Shown here: positions 1,536-22,413 of the stretch, in pieces
Numbering within the stretch: the stretch's first letter is position 1
Layout of the letters: every line of letters begins with the position of its first letter
From: a virus
Reading direction: 5' to 3' (one strand)
Virus record (IMG/VR): IMGVR_UViG_3300035698_001143
Coordinates: 1 to 22,413 of that record
Length of the DNA stretch: 22,413 bases
The notes under the pieces: model-generated
Seen by the model: the letters and a program-made list of their open reading frames with translations, nothing else
Databases searched by the model: none
Told to the model about the DNA's origin: nothing
Translations under genes and position numbers: made by a program

Positions 1536-1805
1536 ATGGCCGACGAAAACGACGACACGCCCCTCCAGCTCGGGCGGGGAACGCCCGGCGACGGTCCGCA
1601 AATCCGGTTGGTCCTCTCGGCAGATCAAGCCAAGGCCCTGCAAGCAATGCTCTCTGACCGCATGTGGTGGGATGGCTTCCTCCGGCGCGCCAAGAAGTGG
1701 GGCGTCGTCGTGGCGGCGGGCTTCGTGTTCCTCGCGGCACTGTCCAGCTGGTGGCCTTGGGTCACGAGCATGGTGAAGGCCCTTATCCGGGACGTGCCCA
1801 AGTAA
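1536..1805 (+). CDS. Small single-span membrane protein between holin and terminase
   Basis: The 89-residue protein has an acidic N-terminus, a short helical stretch with LSADQAKALQAML (about 27-39), basic residues just before the membrane (RRAKKWG) and one hydrophobic segment at about 55-73 (VVVAAGFVFLAAL), then a WWPW patch and a basic tail. It starts directly after the holin TAG and ends in a TAATG overlap with the terminase gene, so it belongs to the lysis/packaging operon. No family is recognised. It could be a second holin, an antiholin or part of a spanin. It sits where many phages carry the small terminase subunit but does not look like one. Confidence 0.72.
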   Translation: MADENDDTPLQLGRGTPGDGPQIRLVLSADQAKALQAMLSDRMWWDGFLRRAKKWGVVVAAGFVFLAALSSWWPWVTSMVKALIRDVPK

Positions 1806-3379
1806 TGGCGGTCCAGACTTCATTCCCGCCAATCTCGCGGCGTGAAGCGATCATCCGACGCTTGCTGGCTATCCAGCAGGCGCAAACGGACTTGCTCGCC
1901 TATACGTCGTTCACCATGCCGGACCATCGCGACCCGGACGACGCGCGGCGGACCCGATACCAGAGCGACCGGCTGCACCGGACGCTGGCCGACGCGCTCC
2001 AGAAGCTCGCCGACAAGCGTATCCTCCGGCTGATCGTCAATTGCCCGCCCCGTCACGGCAAGACCGAAATCGCGTCCAAGCGCTTCATGGCGTGGCTGGC
2101 CGGGCAACGCCCGGACGAGCATCTTATTTTCGGCACGTACAACGACACATACGCCGAAGACAACGGGCGCGCGGTCCGCGACATTCTCACGTCGGCGTCG
2201 CACAAGCAGGTGTTCCCGACCTTCGGTCTCAAAGAGGGCTCCGCGTCTGCCAAGCGCCTCGAAACCCTACAGAGCGGCATCCTTGCTTTCGTTGGACGTG
2301 GCGGCTCGATCACGGGCCGCGGCGGCCACGGCATCATCATTGACGACCCGATCAAGGACCGGGCGGAAGCGGACAGCCCGCTCATCCGCAAGCAGCTTTG
2401 GGAGTGGTTCACGCAGGTTGTGGCCACCCGCCTGATGACGCCGGACAGCTTCATCATGCTCATTCAGACGCGGTGGCACGAAGACGATTTGGTGGGACGG
2501 CTGACCGACCCGACCAACCCGTTCTATGATCCAGACGAGGCGTCCAAGTGGACCGTCGTGGACCTGCCCGCGCTCGCCCTCGAAGACGACCCCCTCGGGC
2601 GCAAGAAGGGCGAGGCCCTGTGGCCGGAGCGCTTCCCCCGGGACTTCCTCTTGGGCCAGCAGCGGCTGGACGCGCGTGGCTTCCAAGCGCTCTATCAGGG
2701 CCGCCCCACGTCCGAGACCGGCACGTTCTTCCAGTCGCACCACCTGCGGACGTACCAGCCGGACGAGCTGCCGCCCGACCTGCGATACTACATCGCCTCG
2801 GACCACGCGGTCAGCACCCGGCAGGACCGGGACAAGACGTGCCTGATCCCTGTGGGCGTGGACGACAACGACAACATCTACGTCCTGACGGACGTGTGGT
2901 GGCGGCATGCTGCGTCGGACACCGTGGTTGAAGCCATGCTGTCCCTGATGCAGCGCTTCAAGCCGCTCTACTGGTGGGCGGAGCGCGGCCATATCTCGAA
3001 GGCCATTGGCCCGTTCCTGCGCAAGCGCATGTCTGAGGAAAGCACATATGCCTCAGTGATTGAGCTGACGCCGGTCGCGGACAAGCAGACCCGGGCGCAG
3101 TCGATCATGGGCCGCATGTCCATGGGCAAGGTGTTCTTCCCGGCCCGCGCGCCGTGGTGGCCGGAAGCCCGGGACCAGCTGCTCAAGTTCCCGCACGGGT
3201 CCCACGACGATTTCTGCGACGCCCTTGCCTACATCGGCCTCGGGCTCGCCCAGCAGGTGGGCGCGAACCACGTCACCAAAATTCACCGCCAGAAGGACGG
3301 CACCTTCGGCGCGATGTTCGCGAACACCCGCCGCGACAGCAAACTCAAGGTAGCCGCTCGCGAAGCGGCGGATTGGTAG
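1805..3379 (+). CDS. terL: Terminase large subunit (DNA packaging ATPase/nuclease)
   Basis: The 524-residue protein has the expected two-domain build. The ATPase has Walker A CPPRHGKTE at about residues 80-88 and Walker B IIIDDP at about 177-182. The nuclease half starts near the YYIASDHAV segment (an acidic strand typical of the RNase H-like fold), continues with VDDNDNIYVLTDVW, and ends with HDDFCDAL at about 467-474, the usual last metal-ligand motif (Terminase_6C type). It should cut concatemers and drive DNA into the prohead through the portal. I chose ATG 1805 because it overlaps the preceding stop as TAATG and gives the normal N-terminus. An in-frame start at 1664 would run through the preceding gene. 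No small subunit is visible next to it. Confidence 0.95.
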   Translation: MAVQTSFPPISRREAIIRRLLAIQQAQTDLLAYTSFTMPDHRDPDDARRTRYQSDRLHRTLADALQKLADKRILRLIVNCPPRHGKTEIASKRFMAWLAGQRPDEHLIFGTYNDTYAEDNGRAVRDILTSASHKQVFPTFGLKEGSASAKRLETLQSGILAFVGRGGSITGRGGHGIIIDDPIKDRAEADSPLIRKQLWEWFTQVVATRLMTPDSFIMLIQTRWHEDDLVGRLTDPTNPFYDPDEASKWTVVDLPALALEDDPLGRKKGEALWPERFPRDFLLGQQRLDARGFQALYQGRPTSETGTFFQSHHLRTYQPDELPPDLRYYIASDHAVSTRQDRDKTCLIPVGVDDNDNIYVLTDVWWRHAASDTVVEAMLSLMQRFKPLYWWAERGHISKAIGPFLRKRMSEESTYASVIELTPVADKQTRAQSIMGRMSMGKVFFPARAPWWPEARDQLLKFPHGSHDDFCDALAYIGLGLAQQVGANHVTKIHRQKDGTFGAMFANTRRDSKLKVAAREAADW

Positions 3380-3386
3380 GCCCGGA

Positions 3387-5594
3387 ATGAACACGCTTGA
3401 AGACGCAGTTGTAGGCGCAATGCCCGGAGCCGCCCCCGCAGGTCCAGGTCCAGTGGACCCGATGGCGGGTATGGACCCCACCGAGCCGCAAGGTGACGTT
3501 GTGGACCGCACCGCTCCGGACCCGGAACAGGCGCGGCGAGCCCTCGTCACGCAATGGATTGGCCGCGTGAAAACGGCAGAAGAATATTGGGAGCGGCGCG
3601 CCTTCGACAAGATGCGCAAGAACATGAAGATGGCGCGCGGCGACCAGTGGACGGTTCCGGACGCGCAGTTCGTGGACGACCCCGGCAAGCGCTATGTCGC
3701 CAACATTGTGCTGCGCCACATTCACCACCGCACGGCGTCGATCTACGGCAAGAACCCGAAGATCGTGGCCCGGCGCAAAGAGCGCCTCATGTCCACGGTT
3801 TGGGACGGGTCCAGTCAGGCCGTCATGAGCGCCGTGGAAGCGCTCTCGCTGACCCCGGACCCGATGGACCCGAGCGTGATGCAGGCGCTGGCATTGCTGC
3901 AAGACGCCCAACAGACCGTCGAGAACAACAAGATGATGGATAAGGTCGCCAAGACCCTCCAGCTTCTTTACGAGTACGAAATCGCTGAGCAGACCGTGCC
4001 CTTCAAAATCCAGATGAAGGCGACGGTCCGGCGTACCCTCACGACCGGCGTGGGCTGGGTCAAGCTGGGCTTCCAGCGCGTCATGAAGCTGTCCCCGGAG
4101 CTTGAAACGCAGGTCTCGGACCTGTCGCAGAAGCTGGCCACGATTGAGCAGCTTTCGGCGGACGTGGCTGACGGCGAGGTCCAGCCGGACAGCGCTGAAG
4201 CCGAACAGCTCAAGCTCGCGGTCCAGAGCCTACAGGCCAACCCGGACGTGATTGTGCGCGAAGGGCTGACCGTCAGCTACCCGGACAGCACCGCGATTGT
4301 TCCGGACCCGGCGGTCCGCCAGCTCCGGGGCTTCGTCGGGGCTGAATGGGTCGCAGAGCGCTTCATGCTGTCTCCGGCGCGGGTCCAGCAGATTTACGGC
4401 GTGGACGTGGCCAAGTCGGCCTACGCCTACACCGAAGACCCGGCCACCCACCAGATCAAGGCGGAAAGCACCAGCCCCGTCATCAACTCGAACGGCGACC
4501 GGCAGATGGCGGAGCAGTCCCTGTTCTGCGTTTGGGAAATATACAACAAGTCCGACGGGCTGGTTTACGCCGCCTGCGACGGCTGGCCGGACTTCCTGAT
4601 GGAACCGGCGGAGCCCGACGTTTGGCTCGAACGCTTCTGGCCATGGTTCGGCTTCGTGACCAACGAAGTGTACGACGAGCAGACGGTCTACCCGCCTTCG
4701 GACGTGTCGCTGATCGAAGACATGCAGCTGGAGCTGAATCGCGCCCGGCAGGGCCTGCGGGAGCATCGGCGCGCTGCGCGTCCCCGTATCTTCACCCGCC
4801 GGGGCTTCCTCGAAACGAACGAGAAGGAAGCGATCAGCGAAGCCCGCGCGCACGAAGTCATTGAGCTGAACGGCCTGCCGGACAGCATGCCGATTGACGA
4901 AGCACTCATGGGTTGGGCGGGCGCAGCTATCCGGCCTGAGCTGTACGACACCAGTCCCCAGCTCGAAGACTACTACCGCGTCGTCGGCGCGCAGGAAGCC
5001 AACCTTGGCGGCACGTCCGGCGCGACGGCCACCGAGACCTCCATCGCCGAAGGCTCGCGCATGTCCAGCGTGTCCAGCGTCGTGGACGACCTTGACGAGT
5101 TCCTGACCGAGATTGCCCGCGCCTCGGGCCAAATTCTGTTCGCCAACGTGACCGCCGAAACGGTGAAGCGCGTTGTCGGCCCGGGCGCTGTCTGGCCGGA
5201 AACCTCGCGCGATGAAATCGCCCGGGAAATCTATCTGGACATTGAGGCGGCCAGCACCGGACGCCCCAACAAGGCGCAGGAAGTCCAGAACGCGACGCAG
5301 CTTATTCCGCTGCTTCTGCAAATCCCCGGCCTCTCTCCGGAGTGGATGGCGCGCGAAATGCTCCGCCGTCTGGACGACCGGCTGGACCTGACCGACGCCT
5401 TTGCGGCGGGCATGCCCTCCATCCAGATGATGAACGGCATGAAGCAGCAAGGCTCCGGCGGGCCGAACGACCCGAACGCCCAAGGCGGGCAGGGCGGCAA
5501 CAACGCCGCCAGCACGAAGCCCGCGCAGACCAACGTAGCGCCGCGCCCCGGCGCGCCGCCCCCCAACCCCCAACCGACGCGCCCAAGCGCTTAG
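3387..5594 (+). CDS. Portal (head-tail connector) protein
   Basis: This 735-residue protein lies 7 bp after terL and before scaffold and capsid genes, the standard portal place. The N-terminus is Pro/Gly-rich and probably disordered. The core contains ARGDQW, a VGWVKLGF segment near residues 222-229, aromatic-rich WYPPSDVS-like strands and the helical GGTSGATATETS stretch near 541-552, seen in large podovirus portals. A predicted coiled-coil insertion at about 233-285 (ELETQVSDLSQKLATIEQL and after) is noteworthy. The last 60 residues are Gly/Asn/Pro-rich. It should form the dodecameric ring through which DNA enters and leaves. Family assignment rests on position, length and general pattern. 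Confidence 0.85.
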   Translation: MNTLEDAVVGAMPGAAPAGPGPVDPMAGMDPTEPQGDVVDRTAPDPEQARRALVTQWIGRVKTAEEYWERRAFDKMRKNMKMARGDQWTVPDAQFVDDPGKRYVANIVLRHIHHRTASIYGKNPKIVARRKERLMSTVWDGSSQAVMSAVEALSLTPDPMDPSVMQALALLQDAQQTVENNKMMDKVAKTLQLLYEYEIAEQTVPFKIQMKATVRRTLTTGVGWVKLGFQRVMKLSPELETQVSDLSQKLATIEQLSADVADGEVQPDSAEAEQLKLAVQSLQANPDVIVREGLTVSYPDSTAIVPDPAVRQLRGFVGAEWVAERFMLSPARVQQIYGVDVAKSAYAYTEDPATHQIKAESTSPVINSNGDRQMAEQSLFCVWEIYNKSDGLVYAACDGWPDFLMEPAEPDVWLERFWPWFGFVTNEVYDEQTVYPPSDVSLIEDMQLELNRARQGLREHRRAARPRIFTRRGFLETNEKEAISEARAHEVIELNGLPDSMPIDEALMGWAGAAIRPELYDTSPQLEDYYRVVGAQEANLGGTSGATATETSIAEGSRMSSVSSVVDDLDEFLTEIARASGQILFANVTAETVKRVVGPGAVWPETSRDEIAREIYLDIEAASTGRPNKAQEVQNATQLIPLLLQIPGLSPEWMAREMLRRLDDRLDLTDAFAAGMPSIQMMNGMKQQGSGGPNDPNAQGGQGGNNAASTKPAQTNVAPRPGAPPPNPQPTRPSA

Positions 5595-5693: not shown

Positions 5694-6797
5694 TTGACTG
5701 AGAAGCCGACGGGCGAAAACGACACTGGAATTACACCGGCTCTCCCGCCCATTGAGCCAGTCCAGACGGACGCCGCTGTTGCGGATACTGCGCCCCCGTC
5801 CAGCGCAACGGACCCAGCTCCGGCCTCCGAGCCTGCAACGATGGCAGATGCCATTTTAGCGGGCCTCGACGCGGACAAGGGCGAAGACGGCGACGAACCG
5901 ACAGTTGAGGCTGCGGAACCCGTCCCCGACCCCGCCACGTCCAGCGATACCGCCAAGAGCAATGACGGGTCCACCGCAACCGCCGAAACCGGCAAAGACA
6001 CTGAACCCGAAGACCCGACTGACGACGAAATAAAGGCTTTCAAGCCTGACGTTCAGAAGCGGATCAAACAGCTCCTTCACCAGCGCAACACGGCTCGCCG
6101 TGACGCAGAAGGCTCGAACGAAGCCGCCAGTGAGTACCGGAATATCCGGCAGTTCATGGCGGAGAACAGTCTGGCCGACAAAGACATGGCCGAACTGTTC
6201 AAGTTCGGCTCGATGGTGAAGTCCAACGACCCGGCCAATCTCCAGCAGGCGCTGGAAATGATTGGACCGATCTACCGGAACTTGCAGGCCGCGCTTGGCC
6301 ACACAGTCCCGGACGATCTTATGGGCCGCGTGGACAGTGGGGAACTCACCGAAGACCTCGCCAAGCAGATGGCCAAAGACCGCTCTCGGGCGGCAATGGC
6401 AGAACGCCGGGCAACTGAGGTCACGGACCGAGCGACCCAGCAGCAGCAGACCCAGCAGGTCCAGCAGCTGCGAGTTTCGATCCAGAGCGCCGTCGCCGAT
6501 TGGCAATCTCAGGCTCAGCAGTCCGACCCCGACTTCGGCAAAAAAGCCGCTGCAATGGCGGACGTGGCAACAGCACTCGTGGCTCAGAAAGGCCAGCCGA
6601 AGAACGCGCAGGAAGCCGTGGAGTACGCCAAGGAAGCGTACACCCGGGCCAGTTCGTACTTCAACGCTGGGCGACCGACCCCGAAGGCGACACGCCCCGT
6701 CCCCGACAGCGGAGCCAACGGCGCACGTCAACAGGCTCAACCCGCCGCCAACACAATGTTGGACGCGGTTATGCAGGGCCTTCGCACAGCGTCGTAG
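5694..6797 (+). CDS. Putative capsid scaffolding protein
   Basis: The 367-residue protein lies between portal and major capsid genes. It is acidic and low-complexity at the N-terminus (about 1-105, many Ala, Asp, Glu, Pro, Thr), then mainly helical with a Gln-rich heptad-like run at about 248-258 (QQQQTQQVQQL), and a short basic C-terminal region. This composition and place are typical of internal scaffolds, which guide capsid assembly and leave the prohead; there is no sequence motif to prove it. The start is TTG 5694: GGAG at 5684-5687 stands 6 bases upstream and no ATG with a better site exists nearby. The rare start plus the upstream palindrome suggest tuned expression. Confidence 0.72.
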   Translation: MTEKPTGENDTGITPALPPIEPVQTDAAVADTAPPSSATDPAPASEPATMADAILAGLDADKGEDGDEPTVEAAEPVPDPATSSDTAKSNDGSTATAETGKDTEPEDPTDDEIKAFKPDVQKRIKQLLHQRNTARRDAEGSNEAASEYRNIRQFMAENSLADKDMAELFKFGSMVKSNDPANLQQALEMIGPIYRNLQAALGHTVPDDLMGRVDSGELTEDLAKQMAKDRSRAAMAERRATEVTDRATQQQQTQQVQQLRVSIQSAVADWQSQAQQSDPDFGKKAAAMADVATALVAQKGQPKNAQEAVEYAKEAYTRASSYFNAGRPTPKATRPVPDSGANGARQQAQPAANTMLDAVMQGLRTAS

Positions 6798-6811
6798 TTC
6801 TAGGGACTACG
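6793..6811 (+). promoter_or_regulatory. Hairpin carrying the capsid-gene ribosome binding site
   Basis: CGTAGTTC and GGACTACG form an 8-bp stem (one T-G pair) around the triloop TAG, overlapping the scaffold stop TAG (6795-6797). The likely Shine-Dalgarno AGGGA (6802-6806), 9 bases before ATG 6816, lies partly in the loop and partly in the stem. It may couple capsid translation to ribosomes finishing the scaffold gene. Confidence 0.4.
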
Positions 6812-6815
6812 GAAA

Positions 6816-7925
6816 ATGGCCTTTTCGGCTGGACAGCTGGAGAACATCGCCAACTCGGCGCTGGACTTCTATCTAACGCGCGGGGACACCTTCAAGCAGA
6901 GCTTGCAGGCCCGCCCGTTCTTCCACTTCCTCGACAAGGCGGGCGGCAAGAACGTCCCGTCCGGTAAGGGGGAAATCATCATCCCGGTCCAGTTCGCCTT
7001 CGGCGACGGGTCCGGCAACGATGCCGTCAAGGGTTATACCCATGACGACGCCGTGGACTTCCACACGCCGCTGAATGTGAAGCAGGCCAAGTACGCTTGG
7101 CGTGAGCATCACATCGGTATCGAAGTGACCCACACCCAGCTCAAGATGGACGGTATCACCGTCTCCGATGAGATGGGTTCCACGTCCGAGCATGCAGGCC
7201 GGGACGCCACTGTCCTCGTAAACATGTTCGAGAACATGCTGTTCAACTTCGGCGAGAACTACGCTCGCTCGATGAACTTGCTGGCGTGGGGCGACGGTGC
7301 CGGCGACGCGAAGGCGATGGCTGGACTTCGGTCCCTGCTTACCGCCAACCCGACGACCGGCACTGCGGGCGGCATTGACCGCTCCGTCGTGGCGAACAAG
7401 CTGTGGCGCAACCGTGCCCGCACGGCGGCCTATGCCGGGGCGGTGACGGGTGACAGCACTCTGGCTGGACACGGCGGCGGCGCAGTGACTGTCAACGTCG
7501 CCAACGGCGGCGCTCTCTGGCAGGTTCTCCAGCAGGAGAAACGGCAGCTCACCCGCTACGGCGGCAACCCGACGAAGTTCTACGCCGGGTCCGACTTCAT
7601 CGGCGGCCTCGAACTCGAAATGCGGTCCAATGGCTACTACCGCCAGAGCGGCTTCAAGGGTTCGCAGGACGGCGCGATGGGGCCGATGCTGTTCGACGGC
7701 GTGACGGTCGAATATGACCCGACGCTGGACGACCTTGGGCTGACCAAGCGCGGCTACTGGTACGATCCCCGCCACGTCTACATGGCGCGGATGACCAACG
7801 AGTGGCGGCGTGTCCACAAGCCCGCCCGCCCGTCGAACAAGTTCGTGCTTTACCGCTCGATCACTTCGACCGGGCAGCTGGCAGCTCAGCAGCTGAACAG
7901 CGCTCTCGTCATCGACATTGCCTAA
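6816..7925 (+). CDS. Major capsid protein
   Basis: The 369-residue protein follows the scaffold candidate and precedes a strong hairpin, the arrangement of T7 gene 10. It begins with a helical N-arm (SAGQLENIANSALDFYL), has an E-loop-like region with GGKNVPSGKGE at about 43-55, and a long mixed alpha/beta body with a VTHTQLKMDGI segment resembling HK97-fold capsid proteins of the N4 gp56-like type. The C-terminal part contains WRRVHKPARPSNKFVLYRS. It should be the most abundant virion protein and build the icosahedral shell. Assignment to an exact capsid family needs a profile search; the role as capsid is well supported by context. Confidence 0.85.
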   Translation: MAFSAGQLENIANSALDFYLTRGDTFKQSLQARPFFHFLDKAGGKNVPSGKGEIIIPVQFAFGDGSGNDAVKGYTHDDAVDFHTPLNVKQAKYAWREHHIGIEVTHTQLKMDGITVSDEMGSTSEHAGRDATVLVNMFENMLFNFGENYARSMNLLAWGDGAGDAKAMAGLRSLLTANPTTGTAGGIDRSVVANKLWRNRARTAAYAGAVTGDSTLAGHGGGAVTVNVANGGALWQVLQQEKRQLTRYGGNPTKFYAGSDFIGGLELEMRSNGYYRQSGFKGSQDGAMGPMLFDGVTVEYDPTLDDLGLTKRGYWYDPRHVYMARMTNEWRRVHKPARPSNKFVLYRSITSTGQLAAQQLNSALVIDIA

Positions 7926-8438: not shown

Positions 8439-9158
8439 GTGCGCTACATGACGCTGACCGACATGCTGGACGAACTCCGGGCGGAAGCCGGGATCAGCCA
8501 GAACGTTTCGCACGGGGTCACTCAGATCAACCCGCATAAGGCGTTGCTGCGTCGGGTCCAGGAAGAACTCTATCTGTCCTTTGACTGGCCGCACTTGCAG
8601 ACCTCCGCCGTCGTGGACGTGGACGCGGGCACCCGCTTCGACGCCTACCCGGAGAACTTCGTGTTCGAGGGCGTCAAAGAGGTTTGGTGCAAGGACTTGG
8701 ACACGGCGGGCGCGCGTTGGCTCCCGGTTGAGTACGGGATCGGCTCCGACGAGCTGAACGCTATCGACAGCGACGAAGACGAGCGCAAGTACCCCACGGC
8801 GCGCTGGCAGAACTACGTCAACGGCGAAGACGACGAGACCAACCAGAACATGTACGAGGTTTGGCCCGTTGTGGACCGCAACGTGCGGTTCCGCTTCGTG
8901 GGCCGCCGGGCGCTGTTCCCCCTGATCGACGGGGAAGACAAGTCCACCATCGACGCCCCCACCATTATCCTGCATGCGGCGGCTGAAATCCTCGCCAAGC
9001 AGAAGTCCGAAGACGCCAGCCTCAAGCTGGGCAAGGCGCAAGAGCGCCGCCGCTTGCTGGGTATCCGGCAGTCCGCGTCCAACAACGCCCGCACCAATCT
9101 CGCCAGCACCGGCAGTCCGCGCAGCGGGCTCCGGCGCGGCATCGACTACATCGAGTAG
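8439..9158 (+). CDS. Putative tail tubular protein A / head-tail adaptor
   Basis: The 239-residue protein sits between the capsid region and a long beta-rich nozzle candidate, where T7 has gp11. An early helix contains HKALLRRVQEELYLSFDWPHLQ-like residues (about 33-54); an N-terminal helical pair with a Trp-Pro motif is common in podovirus gp11-type adaptors. A strand-rich centre and a long C-terminal helix (about 180-213) follow. It would bind the portal and start the short tail. GTG 8439 is preferred over ATG 8448 because GGAG at 8428-8431 is 7 bases before the GTG; the ATG would be 16 away. Confidence 0.6.
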   Translation: MRYMTLTDMLDELRAEAGISQNVSHGVTQINPHKALLRRVQEELYLSFDWPHLQTSAVVDVDAGTRFDAYPENFVFEGVKEVWCKDLDTAGARWLPVEYGIGSDELNAIDSDEDERKYPTARWQNYVNGEDDETNQNMYEVWPVVDRNVRFRFVGRRALFPLIDGEDKSTIDAPTIILHAAAEILAKQKSEDASLKLGKAQERRRLLGIRQSASNNARTNLASTGSPRSGLRRGIDYIE

Positions 9159-13542: not shown

Positions 13543-14379
13543 ATGGACGCCTTTTTTGACAGCAAAGACTTGGACGTGGGCAGCTTCTACAGCGGCATCC
13601 TCCCCAACGGCGGCGCGTATGGAAACAGCGCGGGCAGGACCCGGGGCCTCTTGCCCGCGACGCCGGTTACGACCGTAAAGGTGGACCCGAAGTCCGGCCA
13701 GCCGATCACTGCGCCCAAAGCCTCGCACCCCTTCGCAACGAACGCGCAGGGCCAGACGTACAACCCTGGGGCGAACAACGAGACGTTCACCCCCGGCGGA
13801 GTGCCTAGCTGGGCGGTCGGCAACGCCGCCGCCGCGCAGGGATACATCGTGCCCGGCAGCTTCCGGCTTATGCCGACCCAGCTTCCATTTTCGGCGGGCA
13901 CCCCGCCGGCAGCGGCCGCGGCTGCCGCCGCCAGGGCGGGCACCCCGTTCACGAACGCCCCGGGCTGGAGCCCGGGTCCCGCAAGCGCTTTCTCGCCGTG
14001 GAACCCTTGGACCTCTGGCGGAGACGAGGGCCTTTTTGGGGGCACCATGTCCCCCGCCATGGCGGCGATCCTCGCGGGCGACCCGGCATACAACGGCGGC
14101 GGCGGCGGCGGCGGCGGCGGGGGCCGCAGCAGCAGCAGCGGAGCGTCTTCCGCGCCGACTTCCTTTCAGGGCTCGTCCACGGGCCGGACGTACGAGGTCG
14201 GCAAGACCTACACGCTGGCTTCTGGCGAGAAGAAGGTTGCCCAAGCGGACGGCACGTTCAAAAGCACGTCCACGGGCAAGTCGTCCAGCAGCGGCGTTTA
14301 CGCGCCGGGCAGCCGTACGCCGACCAACTCGTATGGCGTCAATTCTTACGAGTACCGCAAGGCAATGGCGCACTTGTAG
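13543..14379 (+). CDS. Low-complexity putative virion protein with poly-Ala and poly-Gly tracts
   Basis: The 278-residue protein starts at ATG 13543 with AGGAG at 13532-13536, overlapping the previous stop. It is dominated by Gly, Pro, Ala and Ser: an eight-Ala run at about 125-132, a ten-Gly run at 185-194 followed by four Ser, and a C-terminal part with GRTYEVGKTYTLASGEKKVA that looks like a small beta unit. The very C-terminus is YGVNSYEYRKAMAHL. No family is recognised. Gene order suggests an internal-virion role, and the sequence suggests an extended, flexible protein. Confidence 0.6.
   Translation: MDAFFDSKDLDVGSFYSGILPNGGAYGNSAGRTRGLLPATPVTTVKVDPKSGQPITAPKASHPFATNAQGQTYNPGANNETFTPGGVPSWAVGNAAAAQGYIVPGSFRLMPTQLPFSAGTPPAAAAAAAARAGTPFTNAPGWSPGPASAFSPWNPWTSGGDEGLFGGTMSPAMAAILAGDPAYNGGGGGGGGGGRSSSSGASSAPTSFQGSSTGRTYEVGKTYTLASGEKKVAQADGTFKSTSTGKSSSSGVYAPGSRTPTNSYGVNSYEYRKAMAHL
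14095..14139 (+). repeat. GGC and AGC trinucleotide tracts inside a gene
   Basis: GGC is repeated eight times, then GGG GGC, then CGC and four AGC codons. The tract encodes poly-Gly then poly-Ser in frame. Such runs change length by slippage in steps of three without breaking the frame. Confidence 0.85.
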
Positions 14380-14400: not shown

Positions 14401-17400
14401 GTGGCCCAAAAAGACGAACTGCCGGACGATTATATCCCGGTCTTCTCCAAGCCTACGCACCTCGCGCCCGTGCCCAAGGGTGTGCTGACGGACGACTATG
14501 CTCCGAGCATCGTTGTGCCGGACGCCACCACTCGCAACCCGGTTGAACGCTGGCTGACCGATCCGGTCCAGCACGGCGCGATTGAGCTGGCCAAGCAGGC
14601 CGACACGCTCCGCATGATTAGCGGCGGCATGACGGCGCAGGACTACGCGAAGTCCGTCTTTGAGAAAGACTTTCAGCAGCGGCAGTTCCCCCGCCACCCG
14701 GACGAACAGGCTGGACTTGATGCAGTCGGCAACGCCGAAGGCTGGGGTCAGGTTTGGGAAGCCGCGTCCCGCCCCGGGCTGTGGGCGCACTTGGCCGCGC
14801 AGAGCCTGCCGCAGTCGGCCCCGGCCATTGTCGGCGGCGTCGGCGGCGGCCTTCTGGCGGGACCCGTCGGCGCGGCCACCGGCGCAGCCGCCGGTAGCTT
14901 CGTGACCGAGTTCGCGGCGAGCCTCTTGGACGCCGTGAAGGCGGCGGGCGGCGAAGCCGCAGAGACCGAAGAAGGACTGGCGGCGGCGCTCAGCGACCCC
15001 GAAGTCTTCGCCACGGCCAAAGAGTTCGCGATCAAGCGCGGCGTCCCGATCGCGGCGTTCGACGCCCTCTCGTTCGGGCTTGTCGGCAAGCTCGCTGGAC
15101 CCGTGTCCCGGACGGTCGGCGGCACCGGCGGCAAGGTCGCTGGCGGCGCAACCGAACTGGCGGCGCAGGCCGCCATGGGCACGGCGGGCGAAGTCGCCGG
15201 GCAGCTGGTGTCCGAAGGCGAGGTCAGCCGTCCCGGCGAGGCGGCGCTTGAAGGCTTCGCAGAAGTTCCCGGCATGATTACGGAGCTGCCAGCGGCGGCG
15301 CTCTCGCGTATCCGCGACGGCAAGAAGGCCCCAGCAGAGGCGGGCGGCCCGGCGCTGCCCGACGACTACGCCCCGGTCGCGGCCCCCCTCGTGGACGAAA
15401 GCAAGATCGCAGAAGCGCCGACCCCGCAGTGGGGCGACGACTACGCCCCCCTGGGCGCGACCCAGCCCCAGCAGGTCGCGGCGCAGAGCGTGGACCCCGG
15501 CGTCGTCACGGCGCAGGGCGACCCGAACCTCCAGATTGAAACCCAGCCGATCCAGCCCGGGGAATATTCCTCGGGGGGTAATCTCCCGGCGCAGGCTCCG
15601 CAGGTCCAGCCGGTCCAGGTCCAGCAGCCCGGCGCTGAGCCCGCGCAGGTCCAGCAAGCATCCGCACAAGTCGCACAGCCGACCGCACAAGTCGCACAGG
15701 CTCCCGCACAAGTCGCACAAGCGCCGAAGGCCCCGGACGGCAAGGTCCGGGGCAAGGTTGTGTGGCGCTGGCGCTCCGGCGGGCCGATCACCGAGACGAG
15801 CCCTCGGAGCTTCCCGCAGGTCTCCGTCACGCTCCCCGGCAGCAAGCCGGGCGACGCGCCGACCCTCGTGGGCATGGACACGCTTGAGCAGAACGGCAAG
15901 CCGGTCCGCAACGCCAAGGCGCTCACGCCCGGGCAGCAAGTCACCGTTGCGTCCAACGGCCCGCTCAAGGGCCGCATCGTGACCGTCAACGAAGTGTGGG
16001 CACCCGCGCCCGCACCGCGCACGAAGCAGCCGGGCACTCCCCGCTCGACCAACGTTGCCTTCCAGATCGACGGCGCGCCCGATGGCGCGTACCGCATGGC
16101 GTCGCTCCGCTCCGTCAAGCGCGTCAGCGCGCAGCCTGAGACCGCCCCGGCTCCCGTCAGCCCCCAGCCTGTCAAGGGTACGGAAATCGAGGGGGGAAAT
16201 CCCGGCGTTTCTCCCACCCCCCAGCCGCGCACCATGCGCGCGGTCCGGGCGAACCCCAACGTCCACAGCGACAAGGGCTACCAAGAAGCCAGCATGCCCG
16301 ATGGCCGCAAGGTCGCGTTCTGGAAGAACGAAGGCCAAGGTGGCACCAGCGGGCTTGGCGAGTGGTCCATCGGTGTGCTGGACGCGGACGGCAAAGAGCT
16401 GTCTGTCTCGCCGAGCCTCATGTCCAACTGGGGCCGCGATGACGCCACCGGGGCGTACACGCTGGCGCAGCTCAAAGAGAGCTTCGAGGCGGGCGACTAC
16501 GACAACCGCATCAACCGGCTCTTTGAGCTGGCCGAGCAGACCAAGCAGGAACAGAAGGCCAAGAAGAAGGCCGCCAAGAAGACTGCCAAGAAGACTGCCA
16601 AGAAAGCCGAACGCCTCGCCGAACAGACGAGCGAGCCCGTGGGCGTGGACGTGGACGACGAGGCTGATGCAGACGTTGACGCCGAGATTGCCGCAGAAGA
16701 CGACGCGGAGTTTCTGCCCGGCGCGCGCAAGCCGCCGGGCACCCTCACGCCCAAGACCATGGACGTGTCGTTCACCAACCACGCCTCGGTCAACGAGGAA
16801 GCGTGGCGCGTCGCCGGGCTGACGCCGGACGAGGGCACGTTGCTCCCGCCGGAGAAGAAGCTCAGCACCTTGAAGCGGCTCATGCTGGACGTGTTCGGCT
16901 TCCGGTCCGTGGACCTCGGGGACAAAGGCAAATCCATCCCGGTGAACGAGGGCGTCAATCAGATGCTCGACGCCTACCGGAACGTCCGGTTCATGATGCA
17001 CGTCTTGGGCCTGCCGGTCCGGGCCATTGGCCTGAACGGGACGCTCTCGCTCTCGATGGAGCGCAACACCAACCGCTACTTCGGGGCGTACTTCCCCGGT
17101 GAGCGCAAAATCCGCCTGCCCGGGCGGTCCAACTCGTTCGCCCACGAATGGGCGCATGCGCTGGACCACTACCTTGTCGGGCAGCTGGTGAAGCACCCCA
17201 AGCTCCGCAACCGGCTACTGACGCAGGAAATCCGGCAGGGCAGCGTGGACCCCACGCAGTCGCTGGAAGCCGCGTTCGTGAACCTCGTCAACACCATGTT
17301 CTTCGACAAGGCCGCGCAGGCCATGAAGGCGATGGAGCTGACCACGGCTGCCGCCGAGACGACGGCGGCGGGGCAGCCCACGGCCAAGGCGCGCGCAGCG

Positions 17401-20400
17401 CAAGAGCAGCTGGACCGGCTGGAGCAGGGCGCAACCCGCTCCGCCATTCAGCCCACGAAGTTCCGCCAGAACGCGAAAGACTTCGCGCCGGGCAGCAACT
17501 ACTGGACCTCGCCGCACGAAATGCTGGCCCGCGCCTTCGAGGCGTATGTCGCCCACCGCATGAACGCGGCTGGCGCGAAGTCCAGCGCCTTCGTGTCCAA
17601 GGGCGACGAAGCCTACCTGAGCGGCGCCGACGCCCGGCTGGCCATGACGTTCCCCCATGCAGAGGAACGCGAACTGATCTTCCTCGCGCTGGACGACGTG
17701 TTCCACCATTTGCGCAATCAGGCGATCCTCGGACCCGGCGCGGCGGAAGCCAAGCCCGGCGACGCCGACATTCTGGACCCGGCGCACTGGAACAAAATCT
17801 TGCTGGCGGAGGGCGAGCTGGCCTTGCCGAAAGCCGTGGTCCAAGAAGCCAAGCAGGTGTTCAACGCCGCGCGGAACTTTAGCCTGCGCGACACGGTGTC
17901 CGAGCTGGCGGTCAACGCGGGCCTCAACGTCAAGGGTAGCATCCGCGTCGCCATGCGGCGCGGGGCGGACATTGCCCGGGGCGCGGTCTTTTCCGCCCGG
18001 GGGTACATCAACCCCATGATTAAGCGGAACGAGGGCAAGGGCGGCGAATACATGCGGGCCGCGTGGTCCATGTTCAACAAGCAGACCGGTGCGGGCGGTC
18101 AGCAGATGCAGATTTACGAAGACGACCGGGAGCAGGTTTTCTCGAAGTTCGGCAACCAGCTGGACGGCGAGCTAAAGAACAACAAGCTAGTCCGGCGCTC
18201 TGACGAGCAGAACGCCCGGCTGCGCAAGCTGTTGTTCGGCGAGACTGTCACCGGGGCCACGTCCAACGAGAAGGCGCTGGCCGCCTCGATCCGGCGCATG
18301 CTCAACGACACCCACCAGCTGGCCGTCAACGCGGGCATCGAAGTGGGCTTCCTGCGCAACAAGGGCTACCTACCGCGCATCATCAACACGCAGGCGGTCC
18401 AGGAGAACGCGCACGAGTTCAGCGCCAAGGCCGTGGCTGTCTACAAGTTGGTGTTCGATGACACCCACGCGGACGCGACCCCCGGGCAGCTGGTGGCGCT
18501 GGCGCGACAGGTCGCGCAAACCGCCGAGAACCGGGGCATGTTCAACACCGAGCTGGTGGCGCTCAAAGCCGCCCGCCGGGCGCTCAAGAAGGCCGAGCGG
18601 GCCAACGACACCAAGGCAATCGTCGCCGCCAGGAAGCGCGTGGACGTGGCCGGGGAGAACCTGCGCAACGCGATCAAGCCCGTGTGGTCCGAGCAGGCCG
18701 CGCATCAGTGGACCAAGCGCGTCATCGCGGGCGACAGCATGACGTTCGACACCCTCGGGCCGAACGCGGACTTCGCCAAGCACCGGACCCTGCCCCCGCA
18801 GGCGGACGGCATTCTGGCCGAGTTCTACCTGACGGACCCGGTGGACCTCGCCATGCGCTACGCCAACAACGTCTCGAACCGGCAGGCGTACGTGAAGCGC
18901 GCGGGCAACGGCAGCAACGCCAAGCTGTCCGCCGTCCTCGCCCGCAAAGACGTGCGCAACTACCTTGGGAGCAAGTACGACCCCGGCACCCCGGCGGGCC
19001 GCATCGCGATCATCAACGCCCTGACCAATCAGCAGGCCGACAACCGGCTGGAAATGCTGATGCAGGAAGCGCTGGACGCCGGGGCCTACGGCCCGGACAT
19101 TGTGGCGCTGCGCAAGACCATCGACAGCATCGCCGGGCGCGCCCCGCAGACCTCGTGGGAGTTTCTGGATCGCATCGCGGGCTTCCTGCACGGCGTCACG
19201 TATGTGCTGTTGCTGCCCCGCGCGGCGTTCACGGCGCTGGCCGAGCCCGCCACCATGTTGATCCGGACGCGCAGCGTGAAGGCGGCGGCCAAGACGTTCG
19301 CCTTCTACCTCGGGGAAGCGCTCCGCCACACCAAGTCCACGCAGGAACGGGCGGCACTGGCCCGGGCAATCGGCCTCACGACGACGCCCCTGTACGACAT
19401 GGTGCTACAGAACCGCATGTCCGTGGACCCGACCAAAGTCCTCAACGCCGGGGGCCTGATCGCGCGCTTCTTCCAGACCAACGCCCTCGCGCCGATCACG
19501 AACGCGCAGCGCCGGTCCGCCATGGCTGGCGGCTTCTTCTGGATGCAGGACATGGCCCAGCAGTACGGGAAGGTGGACAGGGTAAAGCAGCGGCAGATCG
19601 CGGCTGAGTTCACCGAAATGGGCATCCCGCAGGACGATTTGATGGCGTTCATGGACTGGCTCAAGCAGTCCGGAGGGCGGCTGCCCTCGCTGGACGAGCT
19701 GGACAGCAGGGCCGGGCGGCTCTTTGAGCAGGCGATCTACTCGTTCGTCGGAACCACCATCATGAACCCGCGCCGGGGCGACAAGGCCATGGCCGTGTCC
19801 ACGCCCTACGGCAAGGCGATCTTCGCCCTCACGTCGTTCTCTTACTCGTTCTTCGCCAACGTCCACGCCGCGACCGTCGCCCGCATCAAGCGGGACTACG
19901 ACATTGCGCTGGACGAAGGCGTCGGCGAGAAGACGGCGGCCTTCAACGCGCTCGCCCCCAACCTCGCGTACTTCGCGGCGGGCTTTGCTGCGATCATGCT
20001 GGGGCAGGGGATCACGACCATGGTCCGCGAAGCCCTGTTCAACCGGGAGCAGTGGGAGAAGAAGCGCAAGGACGGCGAGGAAATCGAATGGCTTCTGGCG
20101 CTCACGGCGTCCCGGTCCGGTATCTACGGACCGCTGGACGTGGTGAACAACATGATGACCGGGCTCCGCTACGAGCGTGACATTGCGAACAGCTTTGTCA
20201 GCCCGGGCGGTAGCTACCTGTTCTCGCAGGGGGCCAACATTCTGCGCGGCTTGGGCGCGACCGACCGCAACTCCGCCAACACCAACAGCGCCGAACGCGA
20301 AATGATGAAGTCGATCTACCGGCTCACCGCGGCCCCGGCGGCCACCACGTTCCTCTCCGCGCTGGACAGCTTTGGCCCCGTCGGCTGGGGCGTCAAATAC

Positions 20401-20553
20401 TTCGGGCTCACCGGGGCGACCTCGAACACAGCGGCGTCGTGGTTCGCGGACGTGACCGTTGGACCTCAGACCCGGCTCAAGAAGGGCGACCCCGGCTACG
20501 TGCCCAGCGCCGCGTCCAGCAAAACGAAGGAAAATCCGTGGGCGGGCCGGTAG
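14401..20553 (+). CDS. Giant putative ejection protein with zincin (LPD1-like) domain
   Basis: The 2050-residue protein starts at GTG 14401 with AGGAG at 14387-14391. Parts in order: four DDYxP motifs (residues 9-13, 31-35, 321-325, 346-350); a Gly/Ala-rich, membrane-active-looking region (about 138-171); Gln/Ala heptapeptide repeats (421-441); strand-rich segments (about 450-700); a Lys-rich helix (about 719-742); a metallopeptidase-like region with HEWAHALDHY at 915-924, whose HExxH would bind zinc, and E1040 or E1047 as possible third ligands, matching the large polyvalent-protein-associated LPD1 type; then long helical regions with hydrophobic segments at about 1596-1622 and 1856-1876. 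Size and last place in the core cluster fit a T7 gp16-like internal protein that forms the DNA-ejection channel. I see no lytic transglycosylase motif. Confidence 0.82.
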   Translation: MAQKDELPDDYIPVFSKPTHLAPVPKGVLTDDYAPSIVVPDATTRNPVERWLTDPVQHGAIELAKQADTLRMISGGMTAQDYAKSVFEKDFQQRQFPRHPDEQAGLDAVGNAEGWGQVWEAASRPGLWAHLAAQSLPQSAPAIVGGVGGGLLAGPVGAATGAAAGSFVTEFAASLLDAVKAAGGEAAETEEGLAAALSDPEVFATAKEFAIKRGVPIAAFDALSFGLVGKLAGPVSRTVGGTGGKVAGGATELAAQAAMGTAGEVAGQLVSEGEVSRPGEAALEGFAEVPGMITELPAAALSRIRDGKKAPAEAGGPALPDDYAPVAAPLVDESKIAEAPTPQWGDDYAPLGATQPQQVAAQSVDPGVVTAQGDPNLQIETQPIQPGEYSSGGNLPAQAPQVQPVQVQQPGAEPAQVQQASAQVAQPTAQVAQAPAQVAQAPKAPDGKVRGKVVWRWRSGGPITETSPRSFPQVSVTLPGSKPGDAPTLVGMDTLEQNGKPVRNAKALTPGQQVTVASNGPLKGRIVTVNEVWAPAPAPRTKQPGTPRSTNVAFQIDGAPDGAYRMASLRSVKRVSAQPETAPAPVSPQPVKGTEIEGGNPGVSPTPQPRTMRAVRANPNVHSDKGYQEASMPDGRKVAFWKNEGQGGTSGLGEWSIGVLDADGKELSVSPSLMSNWGRDDATGAYTLAQLKESFEAGDYDNRINRLFELAEQTKQEQKAKKKAAKKTAKKTAKKAERLAEQTSEPVGVDVDDEADADVDAEIAAEDDAEFLPGARKPPGTLTPKTMDVSFTNHASVNEEAWRVAGLTPDEGTLLPPEKKLSTLKRLMLDVFGFRSVDLGDKGKSIPVNEGVNQMLDAYRNVRFMMHVLGLPVRAIGLNGTLSLSMERNTNRYFGAYFPGERKIRLPGRSNSFAHEWAHALDHYLVGQLVKHPKLRNRLLTQEIRQGSVDPTQSLEAAFVNLVNTMFFDKAAQAMKAMELTTAAAETTAAGQPTAKARAAQEQLDRLEQGATRSAIQPTKFRQNAKDFAPGSNYWTSPHEMLARAFEAYVAHRMNAAGAKSSAFVSKGDEAYLSGADARLAMTFPHAEERELIFLALDDVFHHLRNQAILGPGAAEAKPGDADILDPAHWNKILLAEGELALPKAVVQEAKQVFNAARNFSLRDTVSELAVNAGLNVKGSIRVAMRRGADIARGAVFSARGYINPMIKRNEGKGGEYMRAAWSMFNKQTGAGGQQMQIYEDDREQVFSKFGNQLDGELKNNKLVRRSDEQNARLRKLLFGETVTGATSNEKALAASIRRMLNDTHQLAVNAGIEVGFLRNKGYLPRIINTQAVQENAHEFSAKAVAVYKLVFDDTHADATPGQLVALARQVAQTAENRGMFNTELVALKAARRALKKAERANDTKAIVAARKRVDVAGENLRNAIKPVWSEQAAHQWTKRVIAGDSMTFDTLGPNADFAKHRTLPPQADGILAEFYLTDPVDLAMRYANNVSNRQAYVKRAGNGSNAKLSAVLARKDVRNYLGSKYDPGTPAGRIAIINALTNQQADNRLEMLMQEALDAGAYGPDIVALRKTIDSIAGRAPQTSWEFLDRIAGFLHGVTYVLLLPRAAFTALAEPATMLIRTRSVKAAAKTFAFYLGEALRHTKSTQERAALARAIGLTTTPLYDMVLQNRMSVDPTKVLNAGGLIARFFQTNALAPITNAQRRSAMAGGFFWMQDMAQQYGKVDRVKQRQIAAEFTEMGIPQDDLMAFMDWLKQSGGRLPSLDELDSRAGRLFEQAIYSFVGTTIMNPRRGDKAMAVSTPYGKAIFALTSFSYSFFANVHAATVARIKRDYDIALDEGVGEKTAAFNALAPNLAYFAAGFAAIMLGQGITTMVREALFNREQWEKKRKDGEEIEWLLALTASRSGIYGPLDVVNNMMTGLRYERDIANSFVSPGGSYLFSQGANILRGLGATDRNSANTNSAEREMMKSIYRLTAAPAATTFLSALDSFGPVGWGVKYFGLTGATSNTAASWFADVTVGPQTRLKKGDPGYVPSAASSKTKENPWAGR
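15662..15719 (+). repeat. 21-bp tandem repeat coding Gln/Ala heptapeptides
   Basis: CCGCACAAGTCGCACA starts at 15662, 15683 and 15704, an exact 21-bp period. In frame it gives SAQVAQP, TAQVAQA and PAQVAQA in the giant virion protein. It lies in a Pro/Gln-rich linker. Confidence 0.9.
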
Positions 20554-20660: not shown

Positions 20661-21551
20661 ATGACCAAGAAGACTTTTGACGTGGTGGAGGGCGTACTCG
20701 CCACCTCCGTGGCGGACGCCGCGACCTTCACCGTTGGCTACCCTGCCGGACGCGGCCCCAACGACTATATCTCTGGACGTGACCACATCGTCGCAACCAG
20801 CAATTACGGCGAGCTGAAAGCGCTGGACGGCGTTATCTCCGTCGCCTTTGGCGCGTCCCTCGTGACCATCACCAACAACACGGGCCGGGCCCTCGCGGCG
20901 GGCACCCGCATCTTCGTGCAGCTGGACCGCTTTGGCTTCGACGGCTCCGGCGAAGCCCGCCTTGCCGATCCGATCAGCATGACGGCGCTGTCCACGGTCC
21001 GCGTCAACCTCGGTGCGCCCATCACGGCGGACCCCAACGGCGTCTGCGAGACCCAAGCCGTCACGGACGACGCCCTCCTTAACGGCGCTCTGGCCGCTGA
21101 CGGCGTGGCCACCTTCGACGTGCCGCGCAACGTGGTGGCCGCGTGGACCACGGCGGCGGTCCTCACCGTGACCGGCACCGACGCCTACGGCAACGTCGTC
21201 GTGGAAAGCTCCGCATCCGGTACGGCTCTCACGGGCAAGAAAGCCTTCAAGACGATCACGGCGGTGGCGTTCTCCACGGCTGTGACCGGCGCGACGGTCG
21301 GCACGGGCGACGTTCTCGGGCTCCCGGCGTTCCTGCCCGGCAAAGCCTACGTCACCCGGGAGCTGGAAGACGGCAACGCCGCCGCCGCCGGAACCGTGGT
21401 GGCGGGCGTTGACGCCGTGGCTACGGCCGCGACCGGCGACGTTCGGGGCACCTACGACCCCAACTCCGCCTGCAACGGGACGAAGGCTTTCGCGCTGATT
21501 GCCACGCTGGCCGATCAGCAGTACGCCGGGCGACCTCAGTACGCGGGCTAG
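20661..21551 (+). CDS. Putative virion structural (decoration-like) protein
   Basis: The 296-residue protein starts at ATG 20661 with GGGA at 20649-20652. It is strand-rich and Ala/Gly/Thr/Val-rich with few charged residues. The N-terminus is KKTFDVVEGVLATSVADAATF followed by VGYPAGR; the middle has VTITNNTGRALAAGTRIFVQLDR, an Ig-like or beta-sandwich pattern. I recognise no named family. The start resembles uncharacterised structural proteins from short-tailed marine phages. In T7 the fibre gene occupies this place, but no fibre-like triple-helix repeats are seen. A head-decoration or surface protein is the best guess. A strong terminator lies 30 bp downstream, so it ends the rightward late unit. 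Confidence 0.68.
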   Translation: MTKKTFDVVEGVLATSVADAATFTVGYPAGRGPNDYISGRDHIVATSNYGELKALDGVISVAFGASLVTITNNTGRALAAGTRIFVQLDRFGFDGSGEARLADPISMTALSTVRVNLGAPITADPNGVCETQAVTDDALLNGALAADGVATFDVPRNVVAAWTTAAVLTVTGTDAYGNVVVESSASGTALTGKKAFKTITAVAFSTAVTGATVGTGDVLGLPAFLPGKAYVTRELEDGNAAAAGTVVAGVDAVATAATGDVRGTYDPNSACNGTKAFALIATLADQQYAGRPQYAG

Positions 21552-21582: not shown

Positions 21583-21612
21583 AACCCCCGGCATCCTGTG
21601 CCGGGGGTTTTA
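21583..21612 (+). terminator. Rho-independent terminator ending the rightward unit
   Basis: AACCCCCGGCA (21583-21593) and TGCCGGGGGTT (21599-21609) form an 11-bp perfect stem with loop TCCTG, followed by TTTTATT. This is a strong terminator for the structural operon. Confidence 0.93.
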
Positions 21613-21624
21613 TTCTGCCGGGAT

Positions 21625-21643
21625 TATGCCGGACTTCGGCAGA
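21625..21643. promoter_or_regulatory. Palindromic site 1, TCTGCCG-N5-CGGCAGA family
   Basis: The 19-bp site has right arm CGGCAGA and left arm TATGCCG (one mismatch), centred at 21634, so it is the least perfect of three related sites. It is followed by AAAT as is site 2. A further TTCTGCCG at 21613-21620 adds a half-site directly upstream. Confidence 0.6.
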
Positions 21644-21703: not shown

Positions 21704-21750
21704 TGGTGCTGCCGGTCAGGATTGAACTGACGGCCTCTCCCTTACCAAGG
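21704..21750 (-). other. 3' half of tRNA-Thr(GGT), candidate phage attachment site (attP)
   Basis: Read on the minus strand, the block gives the tRNA 3' half: anticodon loop TTGGTAA (21742-21748; anticodon GGT), 3' anticodon stem GGGAG, variable loop AGGCC, a perfect 5-bp T-arm GTCAG-TTCAATC-CTGAC (21715-21731), acceptor strand CGGCAGC, discriminator A and CCA (21704-21706). The 5' half does not follow. The anticodon stem is broken after two pairs at 21749-21750, no D-arm forms, and the only 5' acceptor candidate (21771-21777) mispairs at two of seven positions. Phage attP sites commonly carry exactly this part of a tRNA gene so that integration restores the host tRNA. The flank is locally AT-rich (21644-21700). 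No integrase lies in the window. Confidence 0.65.
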
Positions 21751-21775
21751 CAAGTGTATGTCAGTTTGTGGGTCA

Positions 21776-21787
21776 GCAGACACAGGG
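21776..21787 (+). repeat. Direct repeat GCAGACACAGGG, copy 1
   Basis: An exact 12-bp direct repeat with copy 2 at 21904-21915. Copy 1 is 26 bp from the tRNA-like block, copy 2 beyond the palindromes. Such spaced repeats can be integrase arm sites. Confidence 0.6.
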
Positions 21788-21844
21788 GTTTCCAGGATTT
21801 CTGGACGTGTGGACCCGTTTTTGTTGGCCACAAGTAGACAAAAA

Positions 21845-21863
21845 TCTGCCGAATTTCGGCAGA
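21845..21863. promoter_or_regulatory. Palindromic site 2, perfect 19-bp inverted repeat
   Basis: TCTGCCGAATTTCGGCAGA is perfectly self-complementary around the central T at 21854. It is one of three related sites in this non-coding interval. Likely a binding site for a dimeric DNA-binding protein. Confidence 0.75.
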
Positions 21864-21873
21864 AATTCCAAAA

Positions 21874-21892
21874 TCTGCCGAAGTCCGGCAGA
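21874..21892. promoter_or_regulatory. Palindromic site 3, TCTGCCG-N5-CGGCAGA family
   Basis: TCTGCCGAAGTCCGGCAGA has perfect 7-bp arms and lies 29 bp centre-to-centre from site 2, close to three helical turns. A single half-site CCGGCAGA follows at 21901-21908. Confidence 0.75.
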
Positions 21893-21903
21893 AAGACAAA
21901 CCG

Positions 21904-21915
21904 GCAGACACAGGG
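21904..21915 (+). repeat. Direct repeat GCAGACACAGGG, copy 2
   Basis: Exact second copy of the 12-bp repeat at 21776-21787. It overlaps the extra half-site that follows palindromic site 3. Confidence 0.6.
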
Positions 21916-22120: not shown

Positions 22121-22413
22121 CTTGATGCTAGTGACCCGGCCCGGAGTGCCCGGGCGGCGGGCTGCTCGTCAGCCATCGCGCACATGCGTCCTACTAGCCC
22201 GGCTGCCGATTGCTGTAGCTCTGCGGTGGTCGGGGCGAGTTTCGCTTTAGCGGCGGCCCCAGCGGCGTCCCAAGCGGCGGCCCCAGCGGCGGCCCCAGCG
22301 GCGTCCCAAGCGGCGGCCCCAACGGCGGTCCAAGCGGCGTCCCTAGCGTCCCAAGCGGCGGCCCTAGCGTCCCAAGCGGCGTCCCTAGCGGCGTCCCAAG
22401 CGGCGTCCCTAGC
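22117..22413 (-). CDS. AAWDAARDAA-repeat protein, C-terminal part (5' end outside window)
   Basis: The minus-strand frame enters from the right edge and ends at TGA 22119-22117, giving 98 residues. The first 55 are Ala-rich repeats in four-residue steps such as AARDAAWDAA, later AAGAAAWDAA. The rest is TTAELQQSAAGLVGRMCAMADEQ-like and ends in SLASR. Proteins with AAWDAARDAA-type repeats are common in bacteria and phages, usually of unknown function; the four-step pattern with Trp, Asp and Arg suggests a long amphipathic helix or solenoid. Its stop overlaps the next start (ATGA), and a terminator lies further on, so it is the upstream member of a leftward operon. The opposite strand is also open across the repeats but lacks such support. 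Confidence 0.6.
   Translation of the reverse strand, partial: ARDAAWDAARDAAWDARAAAWDARDAAWTAVGAAAWDAAGAAAGAAAWDAAGAAAKAKLAPTTAELQQSAAGLVGRMCAMADEQPAARALRAGSLASR
22249..22413 (-). repeat. GC-rich tandem repeats, 9- and 12-bp units
   Basis: Units such as GCTTGGGACGCC (12 bp) and GCTTGGGAC (9 bp) run to the window edge. All steps are multiples of three, so the minus-strand coding frame is kept. Length variation between related phages is likely. Confidence 0.85.

Follow-up and report, generated by a model that had tools for sequence, protein, structure and literature searches.

We analysed a linear IMG/VR fragment of 22,413 bp, called the window here over its whole length, which carries the 3′ half of a tRNA-Thr(GGT) gene on the minus strand at 21704–21750. 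This 47-bp block very probably forms the attP core of a temperate phage of podovirus type, which infects an alphaproteobacterium and integrates at the 3′ part of a host tRNA-Thr(GGT) gene. An earlier note, made from the letters of the window, had proposed such an attP. The proposal is now supported by a related Devosia prophage bounded by a 50-bp repeat of that tRNA part, by tRNA 3′ halves in the corresponding position of additional relatives that encode tyrosine integrases, and by near-identical blocks close to an integrase gene in unrelated phage contigs. From this we infer integration by the window's own phage.

Results

Gene content of the window

The window is a single plus-strand late module, and its right end lies 663 bp beyond the block. 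All annotated genes given here are on the plus strand: a GH108 endolysin (Glyco_hydro_108, 265–1134), small genes, the terminase large subunit TerL (phrog_38, 1805–3379, start approximate), the portal (3387–5594), a gene in scaffold position, the major capsid protein (phrog_9953, 6816–7925), an SU10-type adaptor, a tail protein, an 'internal virion protein' (phrog_308), several unknowns, a large virion-type protein of 2050 aa (14401–20553) and, as the final gene of the structural module, a 296-aa protein (20661–21551) whose stop codon lies 153 bp before the block. A strong terminator-type hairpin, spotted by eye at about 21584–21613, separates this gene from the tRNA half. The portal served as query for finding relatives; its profile gave no match among solved structures.

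We use 'podovirus-type' for the window as a label of gene content only. The T7-like module order claimed in the earlier note found no support: TerL precedes the portal, lysis genes lead the module, and an RNA polymerase is not annotated in the two complete relatives, Mae-Yong1326-1 and RHph_N65. T7-like phages (Autographivirales) are defined by a phage single-subunit RNA polymerase and by a TerL gene that closes the far end of the structural genes; the window, which spans no early region, has TerL before the portal.

The integrase domain PF00589 was not found in the 22.4-kb fragment. Since the integrase genes of relatives lie from 0.8 to 12–14 kb past attP and the window stops at 663 bp, the phage's own integrase would be encoded outside the record. 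At the right end (22249–22413) we observed 12/24/36-bp tandem repeats with an Ala/Trp/Asp-rich minus-strand frame (AAWDAARDAAWD), which are probably the reason for the contig break; a 12-bp repeat also occurs near the left end (111–151).

A tRNA-Thr 3′ half behind the structural module

Read on the minus strand from 21750 to 21704, the block (CCTTGGTAAGGGAGAGGCCGTCAGTTCAATCCTGACCGGCAGCACCA) corresponds to nucleotides ~30–76 of tRNA-Thr(GGT). It comprises the anticodon loop TTGGTAA (anticodon GGT), the 3′ anticodon strand GGGAG, a variable loop of 5 nt, a perfect 5-bp T-stem with the T loop TTCAATC, and the acceptor 3′ strand with an encoded CCA. The 5′ anticodon strand is degenerate (4/5 pairs), and nothing like a D-arm was seen 5′ of it. 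The earlier description of a minus-strand tRNA-Thr(GGT) half that breaks off inside the 5′ anticodon stem and lacks a D-arm proved exact in structure and coordinates. The complete tRNA was absent, as this description required: ARAGORN found no tRNA genes in the whole window, and a covariance-model scan with Rfam gave no tRNA match even at E ≤ 1. A hidden tRNA 5′ end, suggested by a 6/7 acceptor-stem pairing at 49 nt 5′ of the T-stem, was considered and rejected; it has no D-arm, and ARAGORN and Rfam do not accept a tRNA here. Weak Rfam matches to P31 and sR39 fell under the gathering scores and were set aside as irrelevant. Folded alone, the 47-mer gave a z-score of −0.83, which is not significant and is expected for half a tRNA.

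Resemblance of the block to tRNA-Thr is not a matter of chance: BLAST matched it to an annotated phage tRNA-Thr at E 1e-8 and to alphaproteobacterial tRNA-Thr genes at E 2.5e-14, with 44/47 identical positions. Ten of 385 alphaproteobacterial genomes have a tRNA-Thr(GGT) at this level of identity (E about 3e-14), and nine of these ten best host tRNAs depart from the block in one further base and in a T-stem pair that is swapped (T-A for A-T). As the differences include such a swapped pair, the source of the block was a working tRNA with a covarying pair. Pattern searches allowing ≤2 mismatches retrieved the block from none of the 385 alphaproteobacteria and none of 199 Chelatococcus-family genomes, and in a Pseudomonadota sample the best match was still 44/47. 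Nothing above 44/47 was found in the orders of two of the best hosts either, in searches whose E cut-off was stricter than 44/47, so that only better matches are excluded there. The match that the earlier note had expected among alphaproteobacteria was obtained in its near-exact form; an exact one was absent from these samples. As a positive control, the half of RHph_N65 matched many genomes of Rhizobiaceae, the family of its host, with 100% identity over 44–45 nt.

Other viral contigs carry the same tRNA part. An exact 46-nt search of IMG/VR returned no contig other than the window's, and a degenerate search returned 13 contigs with variants of the block, with a complete tRNA predicted by ARAGORN in only one of the 13 stretches. 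The halves in L189, L191 and L194 are 1 nt off the window's core (46/47); L189 and L191 also encode, 135–280 bp from the half, an integrase belonging to the same broad family. Since these and other contigs carry variants, tRNA-Thr(GGT) is used by several phage groups.

tRNA halves in related phages

By capsid and TerL, the nearest named phages are Mae-Yong1326-1 (OP028995) and RHph_N65 (MN988536), each of which encodes a tyrosine integrase and a repressor. In both, a tRNA 3′ half lies right behind the structural module and runs antisense to its genes. In Mae-Yong1326-1 the half is of tRNA-Thr(GGT), as in the window; this phage differs in its GC content of 71.8%, in an integrase ~12.4 kb from attP and in 7/47 positions of the block. 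RHph_N65 has a tRNA-Thr(CGT) half, an integrase homologous to those of the relatives but close to attP (0.8 kb), and a capsid protein 40% identical to that of the window. The Mae-Yong1326-1 half (OP028995.1, ~22969–23015) is of an alphaproteobacterial GGT type with CCA, and the virion genes of this phage are of podovirus type and related to those of Devosia and Rhizobium phages. Mae-Yong1326-1 was published as a 'Microcystis' phage with a reported 340-nm tail (PMC9503304). Either the host assignment or the match between the genome and the imaged particle looks doubtful.

A portal-profile search identified further relatives in IMG/VR and prophages in bacterial genomes. A search for phages near-identical to the window's returned none. 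In G597 (Thr-GGT half) and G599 (Val-CAC half) the tRNA half occupies the same place, and G008 has a half-like T-arm, acceptor and CCA at the attP place in opposite orientation. The integrase gene lies ~12 kb further on in G597 and G599 and, taking these together with Mae-Yong1326-1 and Devosia, 12–14 kb past attP. ORFs of 2108–2441 aa, the equivalents of the window's 2050-aa protein, end 74–166 bp before attP in Mae-Yong1326-1, Devosia, G597 and G008. Integrases of relatives with tRNA halves are mostly 38–50% identical to one another. A recognisable tRNA half was not found in the integrase-bearing G601, G603, G607, G608, G610, G611 and G001, where several contigs were scanned in part.

The integrated state in prophages

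A prophage of Devosia sp. 66-22 (MKUZ01000023.1, 17704–66710), with a portal 58% identical to that of the window, shows the integrated state of such a phage. Its ends are an exact 50-bp direct repeat (17704–17753 and 66661–66710), 49 kb apart. The right copy lies within a complete tRNA-Thr(GGT) gene (66661–66735, minus strand), and the left copy is the 3′ half only. Both ends adjoin chromosomal genes, for a MacB/FtsX permease and an ABC ATPase beyond the left end and for EPSP synthase beyond the right. Structural genes are related to those of the window, and the same 3′ part of tRNA-Thr(GGT) occurs in the same place and orientation, with 7/47 positions of the block differing. The 2108-aa ORF of the prophage ends 87 bp before the CCA end, and the order of structural end, CCA end, anticodon end and replication side is common to both. 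The circularised Devosia phage would thus have the attP arrangement of the window. The prophage encodes a repressor and a tyrosine integrase (phrog_1, 7e-28; 38% identical to that of Mae-Yong1326-1), the latter 14 kb from its left end. Near attL it also bears a gene for a GcrA-like cell-cycle regulator (L131, 5371–5883, minus strand).

Related prophages use other tRNA genes. In Chelatococcus caeni (G014:C3), the prophage ends are a 48-bp repeat at tRNA-Glu(TTC) (8513–8560 and 54586–54633), with the copies 46 kb apart. Unusually, the 41-bp repeat (62920 and 110436) at the ends of a prophage of Mycoplana azooxidifex (G018:C15) comes from a tRNA 5′ half, that of tRNA-Glu(CTC), and not from a 3′ half. 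The integrases of this prophage and of the Chelatococcus one, which targets the 3′ half of tRNA-Glu(TTC), share 52% identity. Separately, in Rhodopseudomonas pseudopalustris (G013:C16) we observed a complete tRNA-Thr(GGT) at 194770–194844 and a second 3′ half at 205504–205551, 10.7 kb apart, with a weak integrase match at 204040; the pair probably marks a further small island inserted at this tRNA.

Dyads and repeats flanking the block

Three copies of TCTGCCGRARTYCGGCAGA (≤3 mismatches) occur in the 22.4-kb window, none of them more than 150 bp away from the block, which they flank on either side. The dyad TATGCCGGACTTCGGCAGA (21625–21643) is located on the CCA side as a candidate protein-binding site in an attP arm. 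On the anticodon side are TCTGCCGAATTTCGGCAGA (21845–21863), which may alternatively be a minus-strand terminator stem, and TCTGCCGAAGTCCGGCAGA (21874–21892), 29 bp from it; one of the window dyads also scores as a terminator. A repeat search further detected two copies of the direct repeat GCAGACACAGGG (21776–21787 and 21904–21915). Two candidate inner arm-type sites are present on the minus strand, GGCCAACAA (21821–21829), a CCTACAA-like site of a type shared with the attP flanks of relatives, and GACCCACAA (21766–21774); both are weak and the sites few. Such CCTACAA-like sites are over-represented in the attP flanks of the window (3 vs. 0.9 expected), G597 (5 vs. 0.9) and G008 (4 vs. 0.6), in counts that are small and for a motif derived from two of the phages.

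We considered the outer repeats as motifs private to each phage, and they are better described as variants of one dyad type, TGCNGN5CNGCA. Dyads of this type were found near the tRNA site in G597, G008, G602 and L210 and at the left end of the Devosia prophage, and were not found near the attP of Mae-Yong1326-1, RHph_N65 and G599. Pairs spaced 29–30 bp recur in the window, in G602 (7053 and 7082 of L161) and in L210 (4557 and 4587). In G603 (L158), which has no recognised tRNA half, dyads at 13750 and about 13985 stand on either side of an intergenic stretch in the corresponding position, where they likely mark an attP devoid of a recognisable half. Dyads and repeats alike may function as arms in binding integrase or accessory factors.

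Complete tRNA-Thr genes with short cores

Two relatives showed a different arrangement. In G602 (IMGVR_UViG_3300025133_000434; L161), whose portal is 49% identical, a complete tRNA-Thr(GGT) (6779–6853, minus strand) occupies the attP place between the structural module and the module of integrase, repressor and replication genes. A second CTTGGTAAGGG, the short core at 6934–6943 (minus strand), lies 120 bp closer to the integrase, and TTGGTAAGGG occurs twice vs. 0.03 expected. An independent phage, L210 (IMGVR_UViG_3300025889_000269), with an integrase 68% identical to that of G602, likewise combines a complete tRNA-Thr(GGT) (4791–4865, plus strand) with CTTGGTAA, a short core at 4700–4707 (plus strand) in the conserved context GGGAGCAYATTCTTGGTAA. 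In both, the short cores measure 8–11 bp, correspond to the anticodon loop and lie on the integrase side, which is the anatomy of tRNA-dependent lysogeny. This mode has been described for actinobacteriophages, and its authors suggest a wider occurrence (PMC10865867). One integrase lineage may therefore hold two forms of attP at tRNA-Thr(GGT), a 47–50-bp half that rebuilds the gene (the window, Mae-Yong1326-1, Devosia and G597) and a tRNA-dependent form (G602 and L210), a proposal that we advance tentatively and rate somewhat short of an even chance.

Discussion

The block is an ordinary, well-supported tRNA attP; the genome that carries it is truncated and represents a temperate phage family that has been little described. 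It follows the tRNA 3′ part for 47 nt through to CCA, with 44/47 identities to host genes and 46/47 to phage halves; a direct repeat of this part marks both ends of a related prophage; and candidate arm sites, the three dyads, stand on both sides of the core and nowhere else in the window. A tyrosine integrase encoded beyond the end of the record would carry out recombination between attP and the 3′ part of the host's tRNA-Thr(GGT) gene. The strands would probably be exchanged in the anticodon stem-loop, where the common block has its 5′ edge, because identity ends there and G602 and L210 share only an anticodon-loop segment. The phage-borne 3′ half would then join the host 5′ half and leave an intact tRNA-Thr at one end of the prophage, while the old host 3′ half would persist, truncated, at the other. 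Integrase and/or accessory factors would bind the dyads and repeats on either side of the block, which would form the attP arms.

Other readings of the block were weighed against this one. Full tRNA-Thr(GGT) genes do occur in some phages (DSS3_MAL1 and the relatives G602 and L210), and the block might be the decayed remnant of such a gene, a translation helper with no role in integration. Yet its 3′ half is intact, with a perfect T-stem and CCA, and ends where attP cores end; several relatives with divergent flanks keep the same half in the same place, one prophage is bounded by the tRNA half, and random decay would not spare exactly this half each time. Decay is hardly credible, and the att repeats of Devosia already largely refute it. 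That the block is instead the attL or attR of an integrated prophage, with the window as a provirus end, is very improbable. IMG/VR includes proviruses, and the 663 bp between the block and the contig end could be host DNA, but the dyads past the block (21845 and 21874) match the CCA-side dyad (21625) as both arms of a single attP would, and the contig ends in a tandem repeat of the kind at which an assembly is likely to break.

A third reading accepts attP and integrase but assigns them to transient integration with no stable lysogeny, as in T7-like marine cyanophages. Such integration has been demonstrated for the podoviruses S-TIP37 and P-SSP7, which have a tRNA-Leu attP, and experiments with S-TIP37 gave no stable lysogens (PMC8776855). 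Repressor genes were not found in these two phages, whereas the relatives described here encode HTH repressors and one of them is a 49-kb prophage with matching att repeats, so we regard transient integration as quite unlikely.

With the block read as attP, an apparently integrase-less, truncated phage contig becomes very probably temperate, its target gene can be named and an alphaproteobacterial host is indicated. In the family of podovirus-type temperate phages to which it belongs, attP repeatedly follows the final structural gene and the tRNA target varies (Thr-GGT, Thr-CGT, Val-CAC, Glu-TTC). In one integrase lineage, the evolution of integration-site choice could be traced, and with it a possible switch to tRNA-dependent lysogeny; if such a switch is real, this mode is not confined to actinobacteriophages and the lineage holds the two states next to each other.

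P22 is a temperate podovirus that integrates at thrW, a tRNA-Thr. It shares with the window a podovirus-type genome and a tRNA-Thr attB; its module arrangement differs. P-SSP7 and S-TIP37 resemble the window in podovirus-type virion genes and a tRNA attP, but they have a T7-like core, use tRNA-Leu, had no repressor found and did not reach stable lysogeny (PMC8776855). The tRNA-dependent system is defined by a non-rebuilding core of ~10 bp and a phage tRNA of the same isotype (PMC10865867); in the window the core is 47 bp, would rebuild the tRNA and is not accompanied by a tRNA gene. Canonical tRNA attP sites are also found in the mycobacteriophages Boilgate and Omega, which are unrelated phages of unrelated hosts with attP close to the integrase gene. 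Their canonical 43–44-bp attP core covers a tRNA 3′ half, the tRNA is rebuilt on integration, and one such core has five single-nucleotide differences from attB (PMC10865867). The mechanism proposed for the window fits these published canonical tRNA cores.
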